Part shown: positions 8,638-53,739 of the stretch, one piece after another
Layout: each line of letters starts with the position of its first letter
How positions within the stretch are numbered: the first letter of the stretch is position 1
Assembly (NCBI RefSeq): GCF_905475395.1
Contig: NC_058338.1
Span: forward strand, 77,759,435-77,823,434
Origin: Chrysoperla carnea
Taxonomy: Eukaryota; Arthropoda; Insecta; Neuroptera; Chrysopidae
Direction: 5' to 3'
DNA: 64,000 nt
The notes under the pieces: generated by a model
Databases searched by the model: none
Seen by the model: the letters and a program-made list of their open reading frames with translations, nothing else
Told to the model about the DNA's origin: nothing
Translations under genes and position numbers: made by a program

Positions 8638-11600
8638 ATGGCTCAAAAGATAATTCAAATCTCACGCTCGGCAAACAGAGTTTTGTCAGCTACAAGTGCT
8701 TTGTATCGCCTGAAAATACCAATCAGAACAATGGTCTGTTTCATATTCAAATTATTATATAAGTTTTTGGATTTGGACCACTAAACTAAACTTTACGTTT
8801 TCTTTTTCAGTCAGATCAAAAAGATTTTCGTATTGAAAAGGATACTTTTGGAGATTTAAAAGTACCGAGTAATAAATATTATGGAGCACAGACAGCACGA
8901 TCAATAATCAATTTTCCAATTGGAGTGGATACTGAACGTATGCCGGTAAATTTTGTTTATCATTTCATTTATCAAAATTTTCCATTCCAACAATAAAAAA
9001 ACTTTACCTTTCACTATTGTTCTACTTAAAATTTAATTATTTTGAATATAATTAATTTTACCTTGAGAATGTTACTTCTATTCATTTAAGATTTATTTAA
9101 AATGTACAGATAAAAATAACTCTTTTAATAGATTATTAAAAGGTAATTGTTTACATCTATTTTTATCAAAATAAACCGGATTTTTTGCAAAAACTATAAA
9201 AAGAGAGTGAGACACAGAACTTTAGACATTGGAAATTTTAAGTCTTTATTTTACATTCAAGAAATTATAATTTTAATGGAAGGATATAAATAGATTTTCA
9301 GTGTAGGTATGCATAACGAAGCGAAAATTTCAAGATTCTTTTTTTACTTGCTTTTTTAATTATTGGTAAAAATAAGAAAATTGTTCCTTTCGACAATTGT
9401 AAACTTCCTGTCATTATTTTTACGTGTTATCACTGACTTCCTTTTAACATATACGCCAAACTAAAAACAAATTATCGAAACACAATAATCAAGAATTATC
9501 GAAACACAATTTTCTTTATTAATAAATTTAGTTTCATTTATCGTTCAAATAGTAGGCAAAAATAATGTTAGAACTTGCATTATGGGCTAATGAAGAATTG
9601 AATGGTTTTTAGTTCTTATTTGTTACTTATTAATTCGAGTTTCCGTTTTAGATTTTTTATTACAATTATATTTTTGAAGAAATAAGGGCGAAAATTTTCC
9701 GAATGAGATTTCAAAAGTTTGATAAAATCTCACCTAGCCACGCGGCTTCACTAAAAACGTAATCGAATTAGCGAAATGTTAGAATTTATTATTTATGTAT
9801 TCGCAAAACGAAATTTTTTTTTTTAATTTCTTCAATGATTTGAAATATTTGTTTTAAATATTGCCAATTGATTTTAATGAGAATATAATTGATTAAATTT
9901 TTTTTCATGGTTTAAAACCTTGAAATAGTTAAAAAAAATAATATTCACAATGGCCAAAATGTCTAGTTAGAATATGGTGTCCTTGAAAATACATTTATAA
10001 AAGTTCTTGTCCGACATTCTACAAAATTTTCGGCATTTTTTTTTTTTCAAATTTGCAGCTTTTGTTAAATTAATTAATTTTTGCATTTGTTACTCAATTA
10101 TCTTCCTATAAGTATAATCAGAAATAAACGGATATTAGTCAATTTTAAGCTTTTGACGAAATCAGAAATGATTTCGTGAAAAAGAAACTTCCACTTACGT
10201 GAATTTTCGTAGAGGTAAAAAGCATGAATTAATCAATTAAGAATTTCTATACGTAAATTTATCTCTGACATAATATGCGATCACTGGGACATGCTTGTTT
10301 CTAATTGATGCACGGGTAATTAATGTCTATAAATAAATTTTTTTAATAAAACTGGTTTTATTTCATACGTGGAAATTAAATTTGACCAATGTTTGTTGTG
10401 TCCGAAAATGGTCATAAATTACGACGATTGTTGGGAGTTACGATTAGATTTTTTTGGTAAAGAATACCAAACTAATGTGACTAAACTGTGACTTTCAGTC
10501 ACACCAAAAAAATGAAATCTACATAAAATATTGTTTACACCTTTAAATGTAAAGAATTGAATAAATTAAGATTAATCATTACCATTGTATTAAACAATTA
10601 AAAGATGATTAATATATGCTATTACATAATAATTTAATTATTCAATTTTGTTTTTGTAATTTAAATACACTTGAACTTGAGTTATTTTTCCATTTGAATA
10701 TATTGAAAAAATTGAATTTATGTAATATATATTAAGGTATACTTCTTTTAGTCCCAAGTATTAGTCTAAGATCCCAATTAGGATCGACCTTCACCCATCT
10801 GTTTACCGGATGAAAGTTATTTTTTATGAAATATAAAATGTTAACAAATATCCCTGCCATGGGTTGCCTATAAAAATGTGGTCCAGACTACTTTTAGTGA
10901 AAATATCAAGAGTAAAATTTTTAGAAATTTTTCACTGACTTGCATATCTTACGAATTTTGATCTACTCGAAAGTAAAAGCCATAAAGAATATGCAGCAGC
11001 TATGTTGTTTGCCTTTTTTCGTTCACTATTATCGCATTTATACAAGTTGAAAATAGTAATTACGTGCATCTGTTAATTCATTGCAGACTCGCATATCTAA
11101 ATAAAGATAATTTTGTTACAATTACGGTGGCATATGATTGGCCACAAAATATTGGTCAAAAATAATGTTTACAAGCTTTCCAAGTTTTGATATTTATATT
11201 AAAAATGGTCTGGACCATATTTTTTAAGGCAACCCGTTACAGGAATATTTGTTAATATTTTACATTTCATAAAAAATAACTTTCATTCGGTAAACAGATG
11301 GGTGAAGGTCGACCCTAATTCGGATCTTGTACTATATGTAACAATTGTGTTTTATTTTGTAGAATTATTTTTGTATTCCATTTTTGCCAAATTTAATAGG
11401 TTTTTGAATAAATTCCTCAAAAAAGTTATTGGTTATTTTATAAAGAAAAACTTTCTAATTTAAACATTACCTCTATCTCTTAAAATTTACGAACATCAGA
11501 TGAATTTTTAACGAACTCAAAAATTTTGGAATAATTTACGATCCTTGTGAGATATGTCCTTCTAAGCAAAACAACTTTTATTGGGGTAATGCGGTAGTCG

Positions 11601-14583
11601 CCTTATGTCGAATTTGCCATATTACACATAAAAATGTAAAACTAGACTTGGTATGATGACAAAATTTGAAAGTGAAATTAAAATTGATTAAAAAATGAAG
11701 AAGTTATAAGCATTCAAAGATTTGTCCATATCCTTTTATCAAAACAAAGTTTTATATCCATTTCTATGTTGATATCGGGCAACGATTTCACTAATCTATA
11801 TCTTTCTTAGTAGATATTGTTCTATGAGTAGATACTTCTAAAGATTTTTACAAGCCAACTTCACTTTTCTGCCCGTGCAGTGAGAATTCTTCACCTGAAG
11901 TAATAAAAAAATTTAGTCAGCAAGCCTATTGCCCCGACAATGCTTTGTTGAAGAAAAATTTAACTGGGGAAATTAAAATGGGATAATCTATTCATTACAT
12001 AATTTAGTACATAATATACATATGTAGACGTGTTTTAACAAAAAAAAAAAAAAAAAAAACAATAAGACAAACAAAACTATGTTAAATTAATGGTAAAATT
12101 TTTGTTTCCGCAGCTACCTGTAATTAAAGCAATGGGTGTGTTAAAAAAAGCAGCTGCTCTTGTAAATAAGGAATATGGATTAGATGCCAAAATTGCAGAT
12201 GCTATTGCAAAAGCAGCCGATGACGTAATATCTGGAAAATTGTATAATGATCATTTCCCGCTTGTTATATGGCAAACTGGATCTGGTACACAAACAAACA
12301 TGAATACGAATGAAGTGATAAGTAACCGTGCAATTGAATTATTGGGTGGTGTACTTGGATCAAAAGATCCTGTACATCCAAATGACCATGTAAATAAAAG
12401 TCAAAGTAGTAATGATACGTATCCAACGGCTATGCACATTGCTGTTGCCGTTGAAATTAATTCGTCATTACTCCCTTCATTAAAATGTCTACACGAAGCG
12501 TTATGTAAAAAAGAAAAAGAATTTGAGAAAATTATTAAGATTGGAAGGTATGTATTTTAATAAAAGCTATTTTGATAATCCTTCTTAACTTGGCGTCATT
12601 GTAGCGACCAAACAGAAGATAGCCGTTATGGCCGGGCCATTTCAATCTATGCATCTGAATATGTCGCCAGAGTCGGCATCTATTAAAAAATGACCTCATC
12701 GAAAATTGTAGAATTTGATGGGGGACATCATGCTCTGGCATCAGATTGGACTTAGTTTTTCGGGTGTCTTTAATAGCGAATTGAACGTTTTTAAACCAAT
12801 GATGGTAGCGAATGTGATGCGTTCAATACGATTAATCTCAGACAGTTCAGTTAGTTTTACCAAAAAATAGCTAGTTTAGATTCTAAACTTTAAGAGATAT
12901 AATAACACTTAAAATTAGACAGTTGATCCTCATAAAAAAACTAACAATTTTTGTTTAAAACATTGGAGAAAAAACGACTTAAAAATATGTATTATTGCAT
13001 TTAATCGAAGATAATACGCTTAAAATTTATCGATAATTGTAGTCATGGAAACATGCGAATATCCTCTATTGTCCTTGACAACTTTTGGCTATAGCATTGT
13101 TACCTAGTTAGCGTGTTTTCTTTCGATTAAATGCAATAATGACATTTATTATTAAGTTGCATTCCTTTCTGAAAGCTGACGATTTTCGAAAAAATGGTTT
13201 AGATGGAAAATGTTAGTTTTTTATGAGGATCAATTTTCTAAGTTAAAATGTTATTCTATCTCTTATCGTTTAGTATCTAAATTGGCTACTAAAGAAACCG
13301 AAAAACTAGGTCAGAAGTCAGAACATGATGTCCCTCATCAATGCATAGATTATTCAGATGCATATATTAAAATGGGTCACCCTGTATATAAATGTTAAGT
13401 GACCATTGTGTCCGGTTATACTTTACCCACGCGATGTCAACAAAATAGCTAATACGCTCAAAGAGGGCAACGACCGCATCTACTGTGAGCGGCAAATAAT
13501 GCGCGTATTTAGTTTTATGCTCAATTGGATATCTCGAAAACCGTGTTAGTTATAAAATAATCCTCGAAATAAAATAAACTTTTACACTTATGTTAGACTA
13601 GGTTTAAGGCTTTACTTTTTTTTTACTCGGAAATCTGTGGTCCCTTTTCTTTATTTTCAGTAAAATTACTGTCAAATACTTCTCTAAATCTACCTGAAGG
13701 CTTTACGAACGTACACTTATTTATTAATAAGGAATTATTTGTTTCAAGAACTCATACTCAAGATGCTGTACCATTAACATTAGGTCAAGAATTCAGCGGT
13801 TATCGGCAACAAATTGCAAATGGAATAAAACGCGTAGAACATACTCTGCCCCATTTATATGAACTTGCATTAGGAGGAACAGCGGTTGGAACAGGTTTAA
13901 ATACAAGAATTGGTTTTGCCGAAAAGTGTGCTGCTAAAATTGGTGAATTAACTGGTTTACCTTTCGTATCAGCGCCAAATAAATTTGAAGCATTAGCTGC
14001 CCATGATACAATGGTGGAAGTATCCGGTGCATTAAACGTACTTGCATGTTCCCTAATGAAAATAGCCAATGATATAAGATTCTTAGGATCTGGACCCCGT
14101 TGTGGTCTTGGTGAATTAATTCTACCAGAAAACGAACCAGGTTCATCCATTATGCCTGGTAAAGTGAACCCAACACAATGTGAAGCTATTACAATGTGTG
14201 CTGCTCAAGTAATAGGAAATCATGTAGCCGTTACTGTTGGTGGTTCAAATGGACATTTCGAATTGAACGTTTTTAAACCAATGATGGTAGCGAATGTGAT
14301 CCGTTCAATACGATTAATCTCAGATAGTTCAGTTAGTTTTACCAAAAATTGTGTAGATGGAATTCAAGCGAACGAACAACGAATTAAAACTATGCTACAT
14401 GAAAGTTTAATGTTGGTAACAGCATTAAATCCACATATTGGTTACGATAAGGCTGCTAAAATCGCTAAAACTGCGCATAAAGAAGGTTCTACATTAAAAG
14501 AGACAGCAATTAAATTAGGATATTTAACTGAACAACAATTTGCAGAATGGGTTCGACCAGAAAATATGTTAGGTCCAAAATAA
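8638..14583 (+). CDS. Fumarate hydratase (class II fumarase), complete, 4 exons
   Basis: Catalyses reversible hydration of fumarate to L-malate in the mitochondrial TCA cycle and in the cytosol. Exons: 8638-8733, 8811-8945, 12114-12547 and 13749-14583, all with GT-AG borders and matching phases (0, 0, 2), giving 499 aa, normal for animal fumarases. Residues 1-31 are Arg/Ser-rich and nearly free of acids, as expected of a mitochondrial presequence. Exon 1 ends exactly on a second ATG (Met32), which would start a cytosolic form [12 protein letters not shown]. Conserved blocks are intact: GSGTQTNMN (133-141), [11 protein letters not shown] (175-185), GRTH with the active-site His (221-224), the catalytic loop [11 protein letters not shown] (353-363) and HIGYDKAA near the C-terminus. 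Intron 2 (3.2 kb) and intron 3 (1.2 kb) carry MITEs. The gene lies divergent from thymidylate synthase and upstream of dos. The identification is very secure. Confidence 0.97.
10763..11335. mobile_element. MITE family G in fumarase intron 2
   Basis: Two arms of about 140 bp face each other: about 10763-10905 (AGGATCGACCTTCACCCATC...) and about 11200-11335 (GATGGGTGAAGGTCGACCC), separated by about 300 bp of AT-rich DNA. The arms match with scattered substitutions. No coding capacity and no clear target duplication. Confidence 0.75.
12626..13384. mobile_element. MITE family A in fumarase intron 3, carrying host exon DNA
   Basis: The left end GGGCCATTTCAATCTATGCATC and the right end GATGCATATATTAAAATGGGTCACCCTG are inverted relatives of the complete copy at 37383-37979; the right end is followed by TA as expected for a Tc1/mariner-type insertion. 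The element is longer than its sisters mainly because a 90-bp piece of fumarase exon 4 interrupts its left arm at 12777-12866. Confidence 0.8.
12777..12866 (+). pseudogene. Captured fragment of fumarase exon 4 inside the MITE
   Basis: These 90 bases match 14259-14348 of the functional last exon with two mismatches (12819 G versus C; 12843 C versus T). The piece has the same orientation as the gene and lies about 1.4 kb upstream of the source. It interrupts the MITE between ..TTTAATAG and CTAGTTTAGATT.., where other copies read ..TTTAATAGTCAATTTAGAT. It has no splice sites and the frame closes at once downstream (AAA AAA TAG), so it is a non-functional copy. Confidence 0.93.
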
Positions 14584-22828: not shown

Positions 22829-23361
22829 AGTGTGGAGTGACTATTGTCACCGCCACGGATGATATCCGTGTTTTTAATTTCAGACACCATTAATTAAAGT
22901 CACGGATGAAGAATTTTCTTTAGCAAATGCCACCCTGTGATTCACGAACTGGCCATGCCTTTAATGGGATCGATTTAGTACGAGTTTGCATAATTTGTAA
23001 TTAATTTTTATTATATGTACTTGTAGTTCAGATATGTTTTATGTTTATCATTTAAAAATTTTTATCTCCTATTTTTACCATCGCTGGTTTTATAAAAACA
23101 CTTTAAATTGTCTTATAAACAAATACCTGCCATTGATACAGACTGTAAAGAGGATGATGGATGATGTTCAATCCCAACTCCCTATGCCTCTTGTGTGTAC
23201 CCAAAGAAATATCCGTTTAAAGAAATTTTTTTGTAAATTTTGATATAAATACAAGTGATTTTTATGTTCTATAACCTTCATGATTTTTATCTTGAATAAT
23301 TTTTGGTTATAAGAATTATTATTATATGATGTATGTATGATGTACTAATAATAATATTATA

Positions 23362-23610
23362 CAAGTGAAAACAAACAATTGACTGAGTTAATTGTTGAAA
23401 TACCATGCATAAACAGTGTTGATTACTCTATCTCTTTTCGTTTTTGAGTTATCGTGTTGACAGACAGACGGACAGACAACCGGAAATTGACTAATTAGGT
23501 GAGTCTATTAACACCTATACCAAAATATTTTTCGTAGCATCAATATTTTTAAGCGTTACAAACTTTGAACTAAACTTAGTATACCTTGCATATTACATAT
23601 ATGCATGGTA
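23362..23610 (-). mobile_element. Short family B insertion with filled/empty site proof
   Basis: About 250 bp from CAAGTGAAAACAAACAATTG to TATATGCATGGTA, lying between ATTATA and TATAAAAACACC. The uninterrupted counterpart in the other arm (about 27803-27822, reversed) reads ATTATATAACACC. The insertion therefore postdates the inverted duplication, and TATA or TA was duplicated at the target. Confidence 0.85.
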
Positions 23611-23775
23611 TAAAAACACCTTGACCTATTATTATGTGTTTATATTATGTACGATGCCAATATATATTACATATCCCCGTTTAATTGGAAAACCTTAAAT
23701 GAGTAGTGTGATTTTTCATCTATCAATTAAGAGAACAAATTTCCTGAATGTATATAATTTTTATTTTTTTAAATA

Positions 23776-23962
23776 GGGCCGATCCCTGTGGTACTGCTAT
23801 ACCGGGTCAACCCGCGGTAGAAGAGGAGCAAGCTCCTAACATTCTACCATGTTCCAAAAAGAAGTTTAATATACTGGTCTCGCAATGCGAGACGTACCAG
23901 ATATTAAGCTGATAAGAACAGACACTACACTTTGATCTTAGCTCATTGAGCCGAGAAGCGAT
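23776..23962 (-). ncRNA. U2 snRNA variant, copy 1
   Basis: The 187-nt U2-like RNA reads from ATCGCTTCTCGG at 23962 down to about 23776. U2 landmarks are present: 5' end, GATCAAAGTGTAG, CTGTTCTTATCAGC, AGGAGCTTGCTCCT and GGTATAGCAGTACC. Non-canonical positions are GTAGTG for GTAGTA in the branch-site pairing segment, CTTTTTGG for ATTTTTGG at the Sm site, and TAGCAG for TTGCAG in loop IV. Stem I (GCTC/GAGC) and stem IIb (GTCTCGC/GCGAGAC) pair perfectly. A putative PSEA lies at 24002-24023, at the same distance as for copy 2. It may be an expressed variant or a structured pseudogene. Confidence 0.88.
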
Positions 23963-25197
23963 AACAAATATCGGGTAAAAATATGATTATATACCTCCTA
24001 AAAGAACAACTCACTTGCGAGAGTTTAAAAATAAATAATAATTTTGCGAAAAGGATGTACACTGTAAGAAAGAAAAAGACGAATATATGGTAAGCGTACC
24101 CTATTGAAGTAGTACGATACCGTGTAGACTGTAGGTGAATAGGTGTAGAGTGTGATACAGGTAGGTTGGTACCTGTCGCTAATATAAATACCTTAAGTAA
24201 TAAATAGGTACAATATATCTAAATACAGAGTCAAATTGTTTTATATCGTACTTGTAGGATATATGAAATTCTGAGGACTCCAATTTGTTTGAATATAAAT
24301 CAATCATTTTCTAAAATGATTTTTCTGAAAATTCTGAGATATCAACTAAAATCGGTTTACGAGGAATTATATTAGTTAAAATATTCAGTCGGAAAATCAA
24401 CCACATTTTAGTGGCTATGGATTATTGTAAGTAATTATCGCTCTAAAATAAAAACTTTTCGTTTAGAATTTTAGGCGATATCTATAAAACTAGACATTTC
24501 CTTCTCTCCCCTCAGATTATTTTTGCCCTCTTAAAGCTCTCTGATTTCTCAGTCTGAACATTTCCTTTTCTTCCCTCAGATTATTTGAGCCCTCTGAAAG
24601 CTTTCTGATTTTAAATAATATAAAAATCTAGAAACACTTCTTTTTTTAAATCATCAAAATCGAAGCTGTTATTGAGGACTTACATTCAGTTTGAGGAGAA
24701 AAACATTCATTTATACGACTATTAATACTTCAAATAATTTTATGACTGTGAGGAAATTGTTGAGTTAGAGAATTTCTAGAACATGAAATCTAATCGACAA
24801 ACAATTTTTTATTAATTGAAAATATTAACATTTTTCGATGTGACTGTTTTAATTTAGCAGCTGAAAATTGAATTTTCCGGCCGCTATTTGGAATTTTCAC
24901 ATTTTTATTGCCAGATTCGAATTCTACGATCCCATAAGCCCCCAGGTTGGTATTTTCATCGTCATTTATTTTTTCAAAAAAGTTTCGGGAGTTTTGGGGC
25001 ATATAAGTCGAATTCCCGAAAAAGGGAGTAGGGAAGAGTCACCACCTAATTTTAGGAGCTTTTCTTATGTGCAATTACGAACAAAATGAGCCATGTTAAA
25101 TCAAAATCGGTTAATTATCGAAAAACTTAGATAGTCGACCCTGAATTTACATTCATTAACTGCACTGTTCATCTGCCAGGTTTTAAGCAAATCTGCA

Positions 25198-26216: not shown

Positions 26217-27405
26217 CTAATTAAATTACAACTTTTTGAATGAAAGCTCCTCTATATATACAAAATTTATAGGTCCTGTTGAGGATTTTATTGACATTTT
26301 ATGATAAAATAATACTTATTACATTTTTATATTATTTTCTTTATTAGTTTCATTTTTGTATTCGATATTTAATATATCTAAATTCTAAAAAAGCATTTTG
26401 AAAATGGATACGTATTATGTATATATGTATAAATATATATAATTTGCCAGGTGATGTGAAAGTACGGGTCTCGCAAATTCTTTTTAAAATTAAAAATTTT
26501 AAGTAGGCAAATGTCTTATTCAGTTATTTGCTTGTAGTACACCTATAATGGATACTTGACATTGAAATTGTAATAATAGATACCTACTAAAATTTTTTTA
26601 ATAATATTTTCAATTAATAAAAAATTGTTTGTCGATTAGATTTCATGTTCTAGAAATTCTCTAACTCAACAATTTCCTCACAGTCATAAAATTATTTGAA
26701 GTATTAATAGTCGTATAAATGAATGTTTTTCTCCTCAAACTGAATGTAAGTCCTCAATAACAGCTTCGATTTTAATGATTTAAAAAAAGAAGTGTTTCTA
26801 GATTTTTATATTATTTAAAATCAGAAAGCTTTCAGAGGGCTCAAATAATCTGAGGGAAGAAAAGGAAATGTTCAGACTGGGAAATCAGAGAGCTTTAAGA
26901 GGGCAAAAATAATCTGAGGGGAGAGAAGGAAATGTCTAGTTTTATAGATATCGCCTAAAATTCTAAACGAAAAGTTTTTATTTTAGAGCGATAATTACTT
27001 ACAATAATCCATAGCCACTAAAATGTGGTTGATTTTCCGACTGAATATTTTAACTAATATAATTCCTCGTAAACCGATTTTAGTTGATATCTCAGAATTT
27101 TCAGAAAAATCATTTTAGAAAATGATTGATTTATATTCAAACAAATTGGAGTCCTCAGAATTTCATATATCCTACAAGTACGATATAAAACAATTTGACT
27201 CTGTATTTAGATATATTGTACCTATTTATTACTTAAGGTATTTATATTAGCGACAGGTACCAACCTACCTGTATCACACTCTACACCTATTCACCTACAG
27301 TCTACACGGTATCGTACTACTTCAATAGGGTACGCTTACCATATATTCGTCTTTTTCTTTCTTACAGTGTACATCCTTTTCGCAAAATTATTATTTATTT
27401 TTAAA

Positions 27406-27427
27406 CTCTCGCAAGTGAGTTGTTCTT
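27406..27427 (+). promoter_or_regulatory. Putative snRNA proximal element (PSEA) of U2 copy 2
   Basis: CTCTCGCAAGTGAGTTGTTC lies at about -61 to -40 from the U2 5' end, where insect snRNA genes keep the PSEA. It is identical at the same spacing upstream of copies 1 and 3. Similarity to the fly PSEA is only partial, and identity among copies is also explained by recent duplication. Confidence 0.35.
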
Positions 27428-27466
27428 TTAGGAGGTATATAATCATATTTTTACCCGATATTTGTT

Positions 27467-27653
27467 ATCGCTTCTCGGCTCAATGAGCTAAGATCAAAGT
27501 GTAGTGTCTGTTCTTATCAGCTTAATATCTGGTACGTCTCGCATTGCGAGACCAGTATATTAAACTTCTTTTTGGAACATGGTAGAATGTTAGGAGCTTG
27601 CTCCTCTTCTACCGCGGGTTGACCCGGTATAGCAGTACCACAGGGATCGGCCC
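27467..27653 (+). ncRNA. U2 snRNA variant, copy 2
   Basis: 187 nt from ATCGCTTCTCGG to GGATCGGCCC. Same variant positions as copy 1: GTAGTG, CTTTTTGG and loop-IV TAGCAG. Stem III can form as GGTAGAA/TTCTACC around the conserved AGGAGC/GCTCCT hairpin, and stem IV as GGTA/TACC. The segment CGCGGGTTGACCCGGTAT is close to fly U2, supporting an arthropod origin. It is the only copy on the plus strand and lies upstream of the lysozyme in the same direction. Confidence 0.9.
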
Positions 27654-28330
27654 TATTTAAAAAAATAAAAATTATATACATTCAGGAAATTTGTTCTCTT
27701 AATTGATAGATGAAAAATCACATTACTCATTTAAGGTTTTCCAATTAAACGGGGGATATGTAATATATATTGGCATCGTACATAATATAAACACATAATA
27801 ATAGATCAAGGTGTTATATAATATTATTATTGGTACATCATACATACATCATATAATAATAATACTTATAACCAAAAATTATTGAAGATAAAAATCTTAA
27901 ACGGGTATTCCTTTGGGTACACACAAGAGGCATAGGGAGTTGGGATTGAACATCATCCATCATCCTCTTTACAGTCTGTATCAATGGCAGGTATTTGTTT
28001 ATAAGACAATTTAAAGTGTTTTTATAAAACAAGCGATGGTAAAAATAGGAGATAAAAATTTTTAAATGATAAGCATAAAACATATCTGAACTACAAGTAC
28101 ATATATAATAATAATTAATTAAAAATTATGCGTAAAATCAGATTAAAATTTGTTATAAATATGCTACAAATTATTCAGTTAATTACAATTAATACAATTA
28201 ATTTTTGAAATAATTACACTCATAGGTATGTGACATACTTATAAAGTAAATATAAGTAAATAATTTTAAATATTTATTATTAGTTATATTTATAAATTTT
28301 TCCAGATTGAATTAATTACAATAATTGAAA

Positions 28331-31437: not shown

Positions 31438-32645
31438 TATTATTATATGATGTACTGATATTTTAATATTATATAAAACATTGTACCCCTCACCCTCCTC
31501 CCCCCATTACCAATTATGTGTTTATATTTTGAAATATATATTACATTTCCGTTTAATTGGATAACCTTAATTGAGTAAAGAGAATTTTCATCTATCAATT
31601 AAGAGAACGAATTCCCTGAATGTATATAATTTTTGATTTTTTGTAATAGGGCCGATCCCTGTGGTACTGCTATACCGGGTCAACCCGCGGTAGACGAGGA
31701 GCAAGCTCCTAACACTCTACCATGTTCCAAAAAGAAGTTTAATATACTGGTCTCGCAATGCGAGACGTACCAGATATTAAGCTGATAAGAACAGACACTA
31801 CACTTTGATCTTAGCTCATTGAGCCGAGAAGCGATAACAAATAGCGGGTAAAAATATGATTATATACATCCTAAAAGAACAACTCACTTGCGAGAGTTTA
31901 AAAATAAATAATAATTTTGCGAAAAGGATGTACACTGTAAGAAAGAAAGAGACGAATATATGGTAAGCGTACCCTATTGAAGTAGTACGATACCGTGTAG
32001 ACTGTAGGTGAATAGGTGTAGAGTGTGATACAGGTAGATAGGTACCTGTCGCTAATATAAATACCTTAAGCAATAAATAGGTACAATATATCTAAATACA
32101 GAGTCAAATTGTTTTATATCGTACTTGTAGGATATATGAAATTCTGAGGACTCCAATTTGTTTGAATATAAATCAATCATTTTCTAAAATGATTTTTCTG
32201 AAAATTCTGAGATATCAATTAAAATCGGTTTACGAGGAATTATATTAGTTAAAATATTCAGTCGGAAAATCAACCACATTTTAGTGGCTATGGATTATTG
32301 TAAGTAATTATCGCTCTAAAATAAAAACTTTTCGTTTAGAATTTTAGGCGATATCTATAAAACTAGACATTTCCTTCTCTCCACTCAAATTATTTTTGCC
32401 CTCTGAAAGCTTTCTGATTTTAAATAATATAAAAATAGAAACACTTTTTTTTTTTTTAAATCATCAAAATCGGAGCTGTTATTGAGAACTTCCGAGTCAA
32501 AACATTCATTGATGCGACTATTAATACTTCAAATAATAGCTTTATGACTGTGAAGCAATTGTTCAGCTAGAGAATTTCTAGAAAATGAAATCTAATCGAC
32601 AAACAATTTTTTATTAATTGAAATTATTATAAAAAAATTTTAATG
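31438..32645. repeat. Third, partial copy of the U2 duplication unit
   Basis: Same orientation as 22987-24829, from TATTATTATATGATGTACT to TATAAAAAAATTTTAAT. It is more diverged than the two arms are from each other and lacks their internal CCCTC..GAAAGC duplication, so it split off first or lost that unit. Confidence 0.88.
31649..31835 (-). ncRNA. U2 snRNA variant, copy 3
   Basis: Reads from ATCGCTTCTCGG at 31835 down to about 31649 (187 nt). It has the same branch-pairing, Sm-site and loop-IV variants as the other two copies. Differences from them fall in stem III (GGTAGAG with GTCTACC instead of GGTAGAA with TTCTACC), removing one pair, so this copy looks less constrained. Putative PSEA at 31875-31896. 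The RNA gene points toward the 3' end of the lysozyme gene. Confidence 0.85.
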
Positions 32646-38060: not shown

Positions 38061-40463
38061 AAAAAAAATTACAGTAGGATGAAACCCATTAGAAAAGCAG
38101 GGGAATATGATCAAAATGAGAGGAAACATAAATTACGGTCGATCCGAGTTCGGGAAGTGGGAGGGGGTGAGCTTTTAAGGGTAAAAAATGGTTTATCTTG
38201 ATTTCCGGCAAAACTACAAGTCCTATGGAAAAAAGTTAAATGGCAAAGTTGTAGGCAATAAAAAGATCTACAACTTTTGTATTTGCAATTTTTTCACATA
38301 ACCTCAAAATTTAGGTGAAAAATTCAAAAAACCAAGTTTTTGGTTTTTTATTTATATCTTTGTCAAAAAAATTTTTTTTTCTACGAAATTTTGTGAAAAC
38401 TTACCTTATTATGTCCCAAATACACTGTAATTTATTTGATTAAAAATATTTATTTTTTCGCTTCATTTTAACTTAATATCAAAAAAGCACCCTAATTTTC
38501 AATCGAAAATTCTGACGTCAAAATATCAGCTTTTTTCAAAAAGTTTGGGGGCTTTTTGTTCCTTGAAATATCTACTTTCTGATGGTGTAAAAAAAATATA
38601 CATTACTATAGGAAATATTCTTAAAAAATGCAAAAAATTGAAAAAACAAATTCGAAATTTTTTTTTTAATTACTATGTACAATTTCATCAAAAAATGTGA
38701 TTGCTGCAATTTTTTTAGTTAAAAAGTTTATTTATTTTACTCGAATTACATTCATGTCATAGAAAATCTCATACAAAATAAATATACATGTAAATCGTAC
38801 TATTGAATTTAGAAACTTAATTCTGATTACGTTAATCATTAAATTTTTTTTTAAAAACGTTAAATTTGTTATTTATAAATACCTTATCTGAAATTCTAAT
38901 CAGTTATTCATTAGTTTTTGTCTCTTTGGAGGCATTTCTTCATCGTCAGATTCGACAAATCTTTCCAACTCTAGTTGATCGTCGAAATCTTCAAGACCAT
39001 CCTCTTCGTCTCCAATGTTATTTCCAGTCTGCATTGGTTCTTCATCCATAATTTCCTCTGAATCATTTACTTCCTCGTAGATTCTTTCTTCCATATTGGA
39101 GCAATTTTCAGAACCATGACAATTAGTGCATAAATTTGTGCATTTTAAACCATGTTTTCGGCAGCCACATTTTAAACTGTTACATCCAGTTTCACAGCTG
39201 CAGCAAATAGTTTTGAGCAATACTTCCGGAATTAAATCCTTTTCTGTAAATTTGGGCATAATGCCACGCTGATGTTGCTTCCAGCCCCAATCTGTTGCTG
39301 TCAATTCGTTACCCAACCAAGTTTGAAGCTGATAATATGCTCTGTAATAATGTTGTTCTGCTGCTCCTTCTGTGGGTGGGAGGTTTGCCAAAATGAAGAA
39401 TGATTTAATTTTTACCAATTGATATTTTTGAAACCTTAATTGATTCAGTGTTATTTTTTATTTTTTACATTTATAAATAGATTTGATTAATTGTAATCCA
39501 TTTTTTTTATATTTTCTTTACTTTCATCTCTTTTGTAAAAAACATTGGCCAAATTTGACAAATTTTTCGCGTCTAATATAGAATTAACGATACTTTTCTT
39601 TCCTTTTCCGGCAATTATCTTGAAACAGCAATAAATAGGCATCTACAAATATTATTTAAAGAAGATTCTACAACTTTTTCAAAATATTGTAGATGTCTTA
39701 TTAAATATTAACTTTATTAACTTTTTTGTTTGTTAATTATAGAAGTATATTTTAATTTGCAATTTTTTCGTTTATCAATTAAACATGAAATCTTACGTTT
39801 TTTGAGTAATTAAAGTGTAAATTTTAATAAATACCTCAAAATTGTACATAATGATTTTAAAAAAATTTTCGAATTTGTTTTTTCAATTTTTTGCATTTTC
39901 TAAGAATATTTCGTATAGTAATGTATATTTTTTTTTACACCGTCAGAAAGTAGATATTTCAAGGAACAAAAAACCCCCAAACTTTTTGAAAAAAACTGAT
40001 ATTTTGACGTCAGAATTTTCGATTGAAAATTAGGGTGCTTTTTTGATATTAAGTTAAAATGAAGCGAAAAAATAAATATTTTTAATCAAATAAATTACAG
40101 TGTATTTGGGACATAATAAGGTAAGTTTTCACAAAATTTCGTAGAAAAAAAATTTTTTTGACAAAGATATAAATAAAAAACCAAAAACTTGGTTTTTTGA
40201 ATTTTTCACCTAAATTTTGAGGTTATGTGAAAAAATTGCAAATACAAAAGTTGTAGATCTTTTTATTGCCTACAACTTTGCCATTTAACTTTTTTCCATA
40301 GGACTTGTAGTTTTGCCGGAAATCAAGATAAACCATTTTTTACCCTTAAAAGCTCACCCCCTCCCACTTCCCGAACTCGGATCGACCGTAATTTATGTTT
40401 CCTCTCATTTTGATCATATTCCCCTGCTTTTCTAATGGGTTTCATCCTACTGTAATTTTTTTT
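38061..40463. mobile_element. 2.4-kb DNA transposon with about 630-bp terminal inverted repeats
   Basis: Left TIR about 38061-38690 and right TIR about 39838-40463 are near-perfect inverted copies, from AAAAAAAATTACAGTAGGATG at the tips to AATTACTATGTACAATTT inside. The middle 1.1 kb holds a minus-strand cysteine-rich ORF. The tips may start at ACAGTAGG with AATT on both sides. Arm identity is high, so insertion was recent. No transposase catalytic domain was recognised, so it is probably non-autonomous; the superfamily is not assigned. Confidence 0.88.
38900..39418 (-). CDS. Transposon-borne cysteine-rich (CXC-like) protein, probably 5'-truncated
   Basis: A 172-codon frame between the long TIRs. 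From about residue 13 it reads LPPTEGAAEQHYYRAYYQLQ then WLGN..DWGW, followed by a cysteine cluster CCSCETGCNSLKCGCRKHG and CTNLCTNCHGSENC (about 72-107) that recalls tesmin/TSO1-type CXC zinc-binding motifs. The C-terminal half is highly acidic and ends in basic PPKRQK. I recall similar LPPT..AAEQH/CxCKxGC proteins as multicopy unnamed proteins in insect genomes. The real N-terminus may be missing or spliced: CACCCACAG just before GAAGGAGC could be an acceptor. Function unknown; plausibly a DNA-binding remnant of a larger transposon protein. Confidence 0.6.
   Translation of the reverse strand: MVKIKSFFILANLPPTEGAAEQHYYRAYYQLQTWLGNELTATDWGWKQHQRGIMPKFTEKDLIPEVLLKTICCSCETGCNSLKCGCRKHGLKCTNLCTNCHGSENCSNMEERIYEEVNDSEEIMDEEPMQTGNNIGDEEDGLEDFDDQLELERFVESDDEEMPPKRQKLMNN

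Positions 40464-53609: not shown

Positions 53610-53739
<130 letters not shown>

Follow-up and report, generated by a model that had tools for sequence, protein, structure and literature searches.

How does a piece of a coding exon come to lie, almost unchanged, within a transposable element that resides in an intron of the same gene? This question is raised by the fumarase gene in the window, i.e., the whole stretch of 64,000 nucleotides of Chrysoperla carnea DNA that was analysed. A first-pass annotation had described the piece and its donor and had proposed a local template switch or repair event, possibly in the course of excision or insertion of the element. Here, we have examined the donor, the recipient element, the junctions, the relative age of the insert and its occurrence in the assembly, and weighed the mechanisms that might have produced it.

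The copied exon piece and its donor

Comparison of the window with itself by blastn aligns positions 12777-12866 with positions 14259-14348 of the forward strand (E 5.8e-40), ungapped and with 88 of 90 bases identical. The two segments have the same orientation and are separated by 1,392 bases. The mismatches are found at 12819 (G, against C at exon position 14301) and at 12843 (C, against T at 14325). Read in the exon frame, the codon GAT of the exon corresponds to GAC in the copy, a silent difference, and the second mismatch would replace the exon's Ile by Met in the copy; the four PDB alignments shown have Leu at this position and therefore do not polarise the latter change. When the copy is read in the exon frame, a stop codon is met just past its right end. 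The first base of the copied piece (C) and its last base (A) are common to the recipient site.

The donor segment (14259-14348) belongs to the last fumarase coding exon, which spans 13749-14583 on the forward strand including the stop codon, as judged from the reading frame and the PDB alignment. All 277 residues taken from this exon can be aligned with PDB chains of mitochondrial fumarate hydratase, and the exon's frame is intact both as a whole and across the donor segment. Since the exonic copy lies in an intact and conserved fumarase frame and the other copy in an intronic element, the exon is the donor and the element the recipient. The measurements agree with the first-pass annotation that the ninety bases equal 14259-14348 bar two positions, and that the donor is the element's own host gene, about 1.4 kb away in the same orientation.

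The intron that holds the element extends over 12548-13748 (forward strand, 1,201 bp, GT...AG), with limits set by the splice bounds and the reading frame. It is preceded by the exon at 12114-12547 (forward strand), the start of which was placed from a CAG acceptor and the reading frame, and the next upstream fumarase exon was found at about 8.84-8.95 kb. The location of the element in a fumarase intron is as annotated, and the ordinal given to that intron, the third, fits if one further 5′ exon exists. A second fold-back structure, with inverted arms at 10768-10909 and 11187-11328 that are 88% identical, is present in the intron upstream of the preceding exon.

A search of the entire assembly (559,487,470 bases) detected the exon piece at two places only, namely the copy and the donor. 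A longer query of 932 bases, comprising the last exon and downstream sequence, matched only itself and the patch, and the preceding exon (query 12113-12547) had no match in the whole assembly but itself, i.e., it occurs at one place. This search skips simple repeats and very common words, but it recovered both of the two candidates, giving no hint of such an effect here. Spreading of the piece along with the element, which had been considered, is rejected by its restriction to two places, a single element carrying it in the assembly-wide search. The opposite scenario raised at the outset, that many elements contain the segment and that the exon took it from them, is contradicted by the same count and by the exon being the donor.

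The recipient element and its family

The recipient is a fold-back MITE at 12629-13386 (no strand assigned, ends approximate) with long, imperfect inverted-repeat arms. The right end reads CAGGGTGACCCATT inward, the left end is diverged, and TA adjoins both ends. With its arms, right tip, neighbouring TA and high copy number, but a diverged left tip, the element is a candidate TA-duplicating and putatively non-coding MITE. The family is large: two probes returned 4,180 and 4,151 first-look candidates, 40 of which were scored for each probe. With one probe, the best rows of the 39 other scored places gave 76-82% identity to the host copy (at most 475 of 510 bases). Individual short parts of the host arms find better matches than the whole element does, with identities of up to 92% over 62 bases in the left arm.

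The insertion site is spanned by 46 alignments of other copies (5 in the window and 41 in loci L005-L033), only one of which is ragged there, and by 53 further alignments in 29 loci (L035-L063), again with one ragged case. Both lists hold spanning alignments alone and an interrupted copy would drop out of them, so a scan for split alignments was also run. None of the 58 other family loci had an alignment split at the site, the host copy being the sole split one, and at least one spanning alignment was present in all 58. These loci (L005-L033 and L035-L063) represent 56 distinct places, as L020 overlaps L042 and L031 overlaps L037; L004 was left out as the window's own copy. The earlier statement that other family copies are uninterrupted at this site is confirmed by these scans.

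Insertion footprint and junctions

Near the site, other family copies mostly read TTTAATAG(C/T)CAATTTAGAT, whereas the host reads TTTAATAGC, followed by the exon piece and then (A)ATAGCTAGTTTAGAT. The bases (A)ATAGC occur once in the other copies and twice in the host, where they flank the insert. The left AATAGC occupies 12772-12777 (core ATAGC at 12773-12777) and the right one 12866-12871 (core at 12867-12871), both on the forward strand. On the family sequence, the host alignments to the left and to the right of the insert share 6 positions, and the target duplication amounts to 4-6 bp, depending on how the shared bases are assigned. The junctions have a microhomology of approximately 1 bp each, C on the left and A on the right, assignable to donor or recipient. 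The net insertion is 94 bp, relative to the uninterrupted site as read in other copies of the family.

This target duplication is a footprint that was absent from the earlier annotation, and it argues for a real insertion rather than a misassembly. A chimeric join or a misplaced read is the least probable of all the explanations considered here: neither the two substitutions in the copy nor the duplication at its ends would be expected of a misjoin, and the contig of 100.7 Mb suggests a long-read, chromosome-scale assembly.

The same junctions may recall insertions templated by RNA, in which a nascent or mature fumarase transcript would have been reverse-transcribed into a nick or break, a route that has been proposed for templated sequence insertions of class 1 and class 2. 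In the available text on such events, those of class 1 are accompanied by a duplication of at least 5 bp and as a rule use a TTTT/A target (PMC5110952). Here, the donor is wholly exonic and in sense orientation, the duplication is about 5 bp, a T-run/A target is present (TTT|AATAGC) and an A-run lies at the 3′ end of the patch. However, that run of 6 consists of 5 donor A and 1 recipient A, with no added poly(A), neither AATAAA nor ATTAAA occurs within the 90 bases, and no splice junction is crossed. Moreover, no retrocopy of the last or the preceding fumarase exon was found in the whole assembly, and a free RNA pool would not explain the nearness of the donor, so that a nascent transcript acting in cis would be needed. 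An RNA template is considered unlikely on these grounds.

Relative age of the insert and the element

Compared with a family majority defined by a 50% rule, the host element has 53 differences in 602 sites (8.8%); with a 70% rule, it has 31 in 554 (5.6%). Between patch and exon, 2 of 90 positions differ (2.2%). Across six settings, the one-sided Fisher test of element versus patch divergence gave p values of 0.017-0.134; a first version of the test, with 40 of 543 sites, gave a two-sided p of 0.07. The biases of this test run both ways, as unclear sites were dropped and both arms as well as different subfamilies enter the majority. These borderline values suggest that the patch is younger than the arrival of the element, and gene conversion with the exon could make the insert appear younger than its true age.

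The age and the position of the insert both bear on capture of the piece during the element's own excision or insertion, in a Pack-TYPE-like manner. The piece does lie inside an element with TIRs, and capture of gene fragments by plant TIR elements is known, according to the part of PMC8903248 that deals with it. On the other hand, the insertion is located approximately 143 bp inside the element and not at its tip, the duplicated bases are 4-6 bp of element sequence and not the TA that adjoins the element ends, and the piece is found at one place only in the assembly, in an insert that is probably younger than the element. Such a capture is very unlikely, and the suggestion that the event took place during excision or insertion of the element is not supported, in view of the same position and, with borderline support, the same age.

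Hairpin potential of the recipient site

Modelled as single-stranded DNA, element and insert together are predicted to form one long hairpin of -148.2 kcal/mol. The mean of 20 shuffled sequences was -67.3 (z -22.8), and none of the 20 was as stable. In the predicted fold, 40 of the 90 insert positions pair internally and 18 externally (10 with the left flank next to the insert, 7 across to the opposite arm and 1 with the right flank), the rest being unpaired. The patch would thus branch off raggedly from a stem that is paired elsewhere. As it is not purely a side branch, the hairpin argument rests on the arms and not on the insert. The stem of a hairpin or cruciform is a plausible spot for a break or a stalled fork.

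A probable staggered break with a local patch

Taken together, the insert is probably a one-off, locally templated repair insertion at a filled staggered break. The element would by then have resided in the intron for a long time, with arms able to pair into an extended hairpin or cruciform. Breakage of this stem at staggered positions may have left a 5′ overhang of 4-6 bases, the fill-in of which would have doubled (A)ATAGC. One end would then have used the last exon, 1.4 kb away, as the template for about 89 bases before being joined to the other end with approximately 1 bp of shared sequence per junction. The exon would have remained intact, and the two copies would later have diverged at two positions. 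Either polymerase-theta-type end joining or aborted synthesis-dependent repair might have supplied the polymerase. The break, its fill-in and the polymerase used are what we infer from the scar. For a donor picked at random from 559 Mb, simple arithmetic puts the probability of its lying no more than 1.5 kb to either side at about 5e-6, and the nearness of the donor is hardly a coincidence. The length of the patch counts against this explanation: approximately 90 bases exceed the insertions of fly end joining, for which the available data give a wild-type mean of 7.6 bp, some being longer than 20 bp (PMC2895639).

The scar expected from a replication template switch, or from an RNA template, would be almost identical. 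The former is the main rival, the RNA template comes next, and capture during transposition and an assembly artefact are both unlikely. In a replication template switch of the FoSTeS/MMBIR type, a fork would stall in the hairpin arm and the nascent strand would jump about 1.5 kb, copy approximately 90 bases and return 4-6 bases behind its departure point, a double-strand break being unnecessary. Such a course is possible but rather doubtful. It would agree with the local donor, the same orientation, the 1 bp microhomologies and the hairpin-prone site, and a return slightly upstream would yield a small duplication. Nevertheless, a filled staggered break is the more natural source of the duplication, and the scar alone cannot separate the two.

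Of the original proposal of a local template switch or repair event, the local copying from exon to element is retained, in view of the intact coding donor, the lack of any other source in the assembly, and the duplication and two substitutions that speak against a chimera.

Recurrence, base rate and implications

Recurrence was examined in the 58 family loci by scanning for pairs that are 25 bases or longer, at least 88% identical and not made up of family sequence in both members. The scan reaches approximately 1.5 kb on each side, so that the host's donor falls just inside and farther donors are missed. Besides one row for the host itself (L001), it returned 29 rows in 19 loci, which by their coordinates include inverted or self-inverted pairs and tandem or near-tandem direct pairs (L018, L028, L050, L052 and L053). 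Two dispersed direct pairs had both members outside the family match: one in L024 (28 bases, 89%, about 0.3 kb apart) and one in L061 (347-389 and 3424-3466; 43 bases, 93%, 3 kb apart), the latter possibly being another dispersed copy or a repeat. Judged from coordinates, none of the 29 rows from the 58 loci is a direct patch inside the element like that of the host. The view of this locus as a glimpse of how a non-autonomous element acquires host sequence is not upheld: no other place has the piece, and the 58 loci (56 distinct) are without a comparable patch from donors within about 1.5 kb.

For a base rate, a search of 104 kb, the window extended by 20 kb in both directions, retained pairs of 40-400 bases that lie within 10 kb and are at least 93% identical. 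Seven pairs were found: two are tandem, two lie in one inverted structure, two have 5-11 further matches and one, the exon/patch pair, is a lone dispersed pair. A single such pair in 104 kb gives no firm rate.

Several other repeats are present in the window. An inverted repeat with 1.2 kb arms at 23615-24827 and 26602-27815 (99.6% identical, 1.8 kb apart) is accompanied by further inverted arms at 22988-23364 and 27814-28131 (95-97%) and by a 96% copy at 31513-32420; together they make up a large inverted structure, or a pair of elements, of recent origin. A second inverted repeat, at 38061-38685 and 39839-40463, has arms of about 625 bp that are 98% identical and 1.15 kb apart. In addition, there is a tandem duplication at 2151-2662 with a 260-base unit (approximately 98% identical) and a perfect TA repeat of 123 bases at 53615-53737.

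A broader idea, which we regard as quite improbable, is that fold-back MITEs in introns are recurrent break sites at which repair copies host exons in cis, perhaps from the nascent transcript. If this were true, an intron would gradually gather sense exon pieces flanked by short duplications of the recipient. The present locus is a clean natural case in which the donor, the recipient, the empty site of the family and both junctions are readable, and cases of this kind help to separate staggered-break patching from replication switching. They also indicate that short gene fragments can arise in introns without transposition. As a possibility only, recombination between the two copies of the 90-base direct repeat could remove the 5′ portion of the last exon.

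Comparison with known systems

Among the 10 of 189 papers listed by a literature search, none dealt, by title, with insect MITEs that carry exon pieces, which does not prove their absence. Several known types of insertion share individual features with this locus. In Daphnia, new introns are flanked by direct repeats of 4-12 bp that have been ascribed to staggered breaks, according to the available portion of PMC4202315. The short direct repeat of the recipient around the insertion, 4-6 bp here, is alike in both cases, whereas here the donor is identified and the recipient is an element inside an intron that was already present. In fly end joining, templated insertions from adjacent sequence are frequent and mostly much shorter, and mutants of Pol theta have fewer large insertions, as reported in the accessible part of PMC2895639. 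A patch from nearby sequence and tiny microhomologies are common to these Drosophila insertions and to our case, but the patch described here is much longer than their mean of 7.6 bp.

Templated patches from intact donors are also known in human cells and populations, as described in the available sections of PMC5110952. The patch from an intact donor resembles these TSI and TSIP at double-strand breaks; in that account, their donors are distant, while the donor here is 1.4 kb off in the same gene (PMC5110952). Junction microhomology is shared with class 2 TSIP, which in the text available lack the target duplication present here, and class 1 TSIP, which are LINE-mediated, have a duplication of at least 5 bp, against 4-6 bp here. 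Unlike class 1, the present insert has neither a non-templated tail of 10-40 A nor a polyadenylation signal (PMC5110952). The missing tail places it outside class 1, as its duplication places it outside class 2. Pack-TYPE transposons likewise contain host coding sequence inside a TIR element; in the portion of PMC8903248 concerned, their acquisition is modelled as the fusion of neighbouring insertions, and here there is no second element copy with the piece.

The inserted sequence reproduces an intact donor almost exactly, and bases of the recipient are doubled around it. In these respects, the patch conforms to templated repair insertions. It is an isolated event that belongs to a known kind, the locally templated insertion, and it is set apart from the insertions compared above by a donor in the same gene and by a patch of approximately 90 bases.
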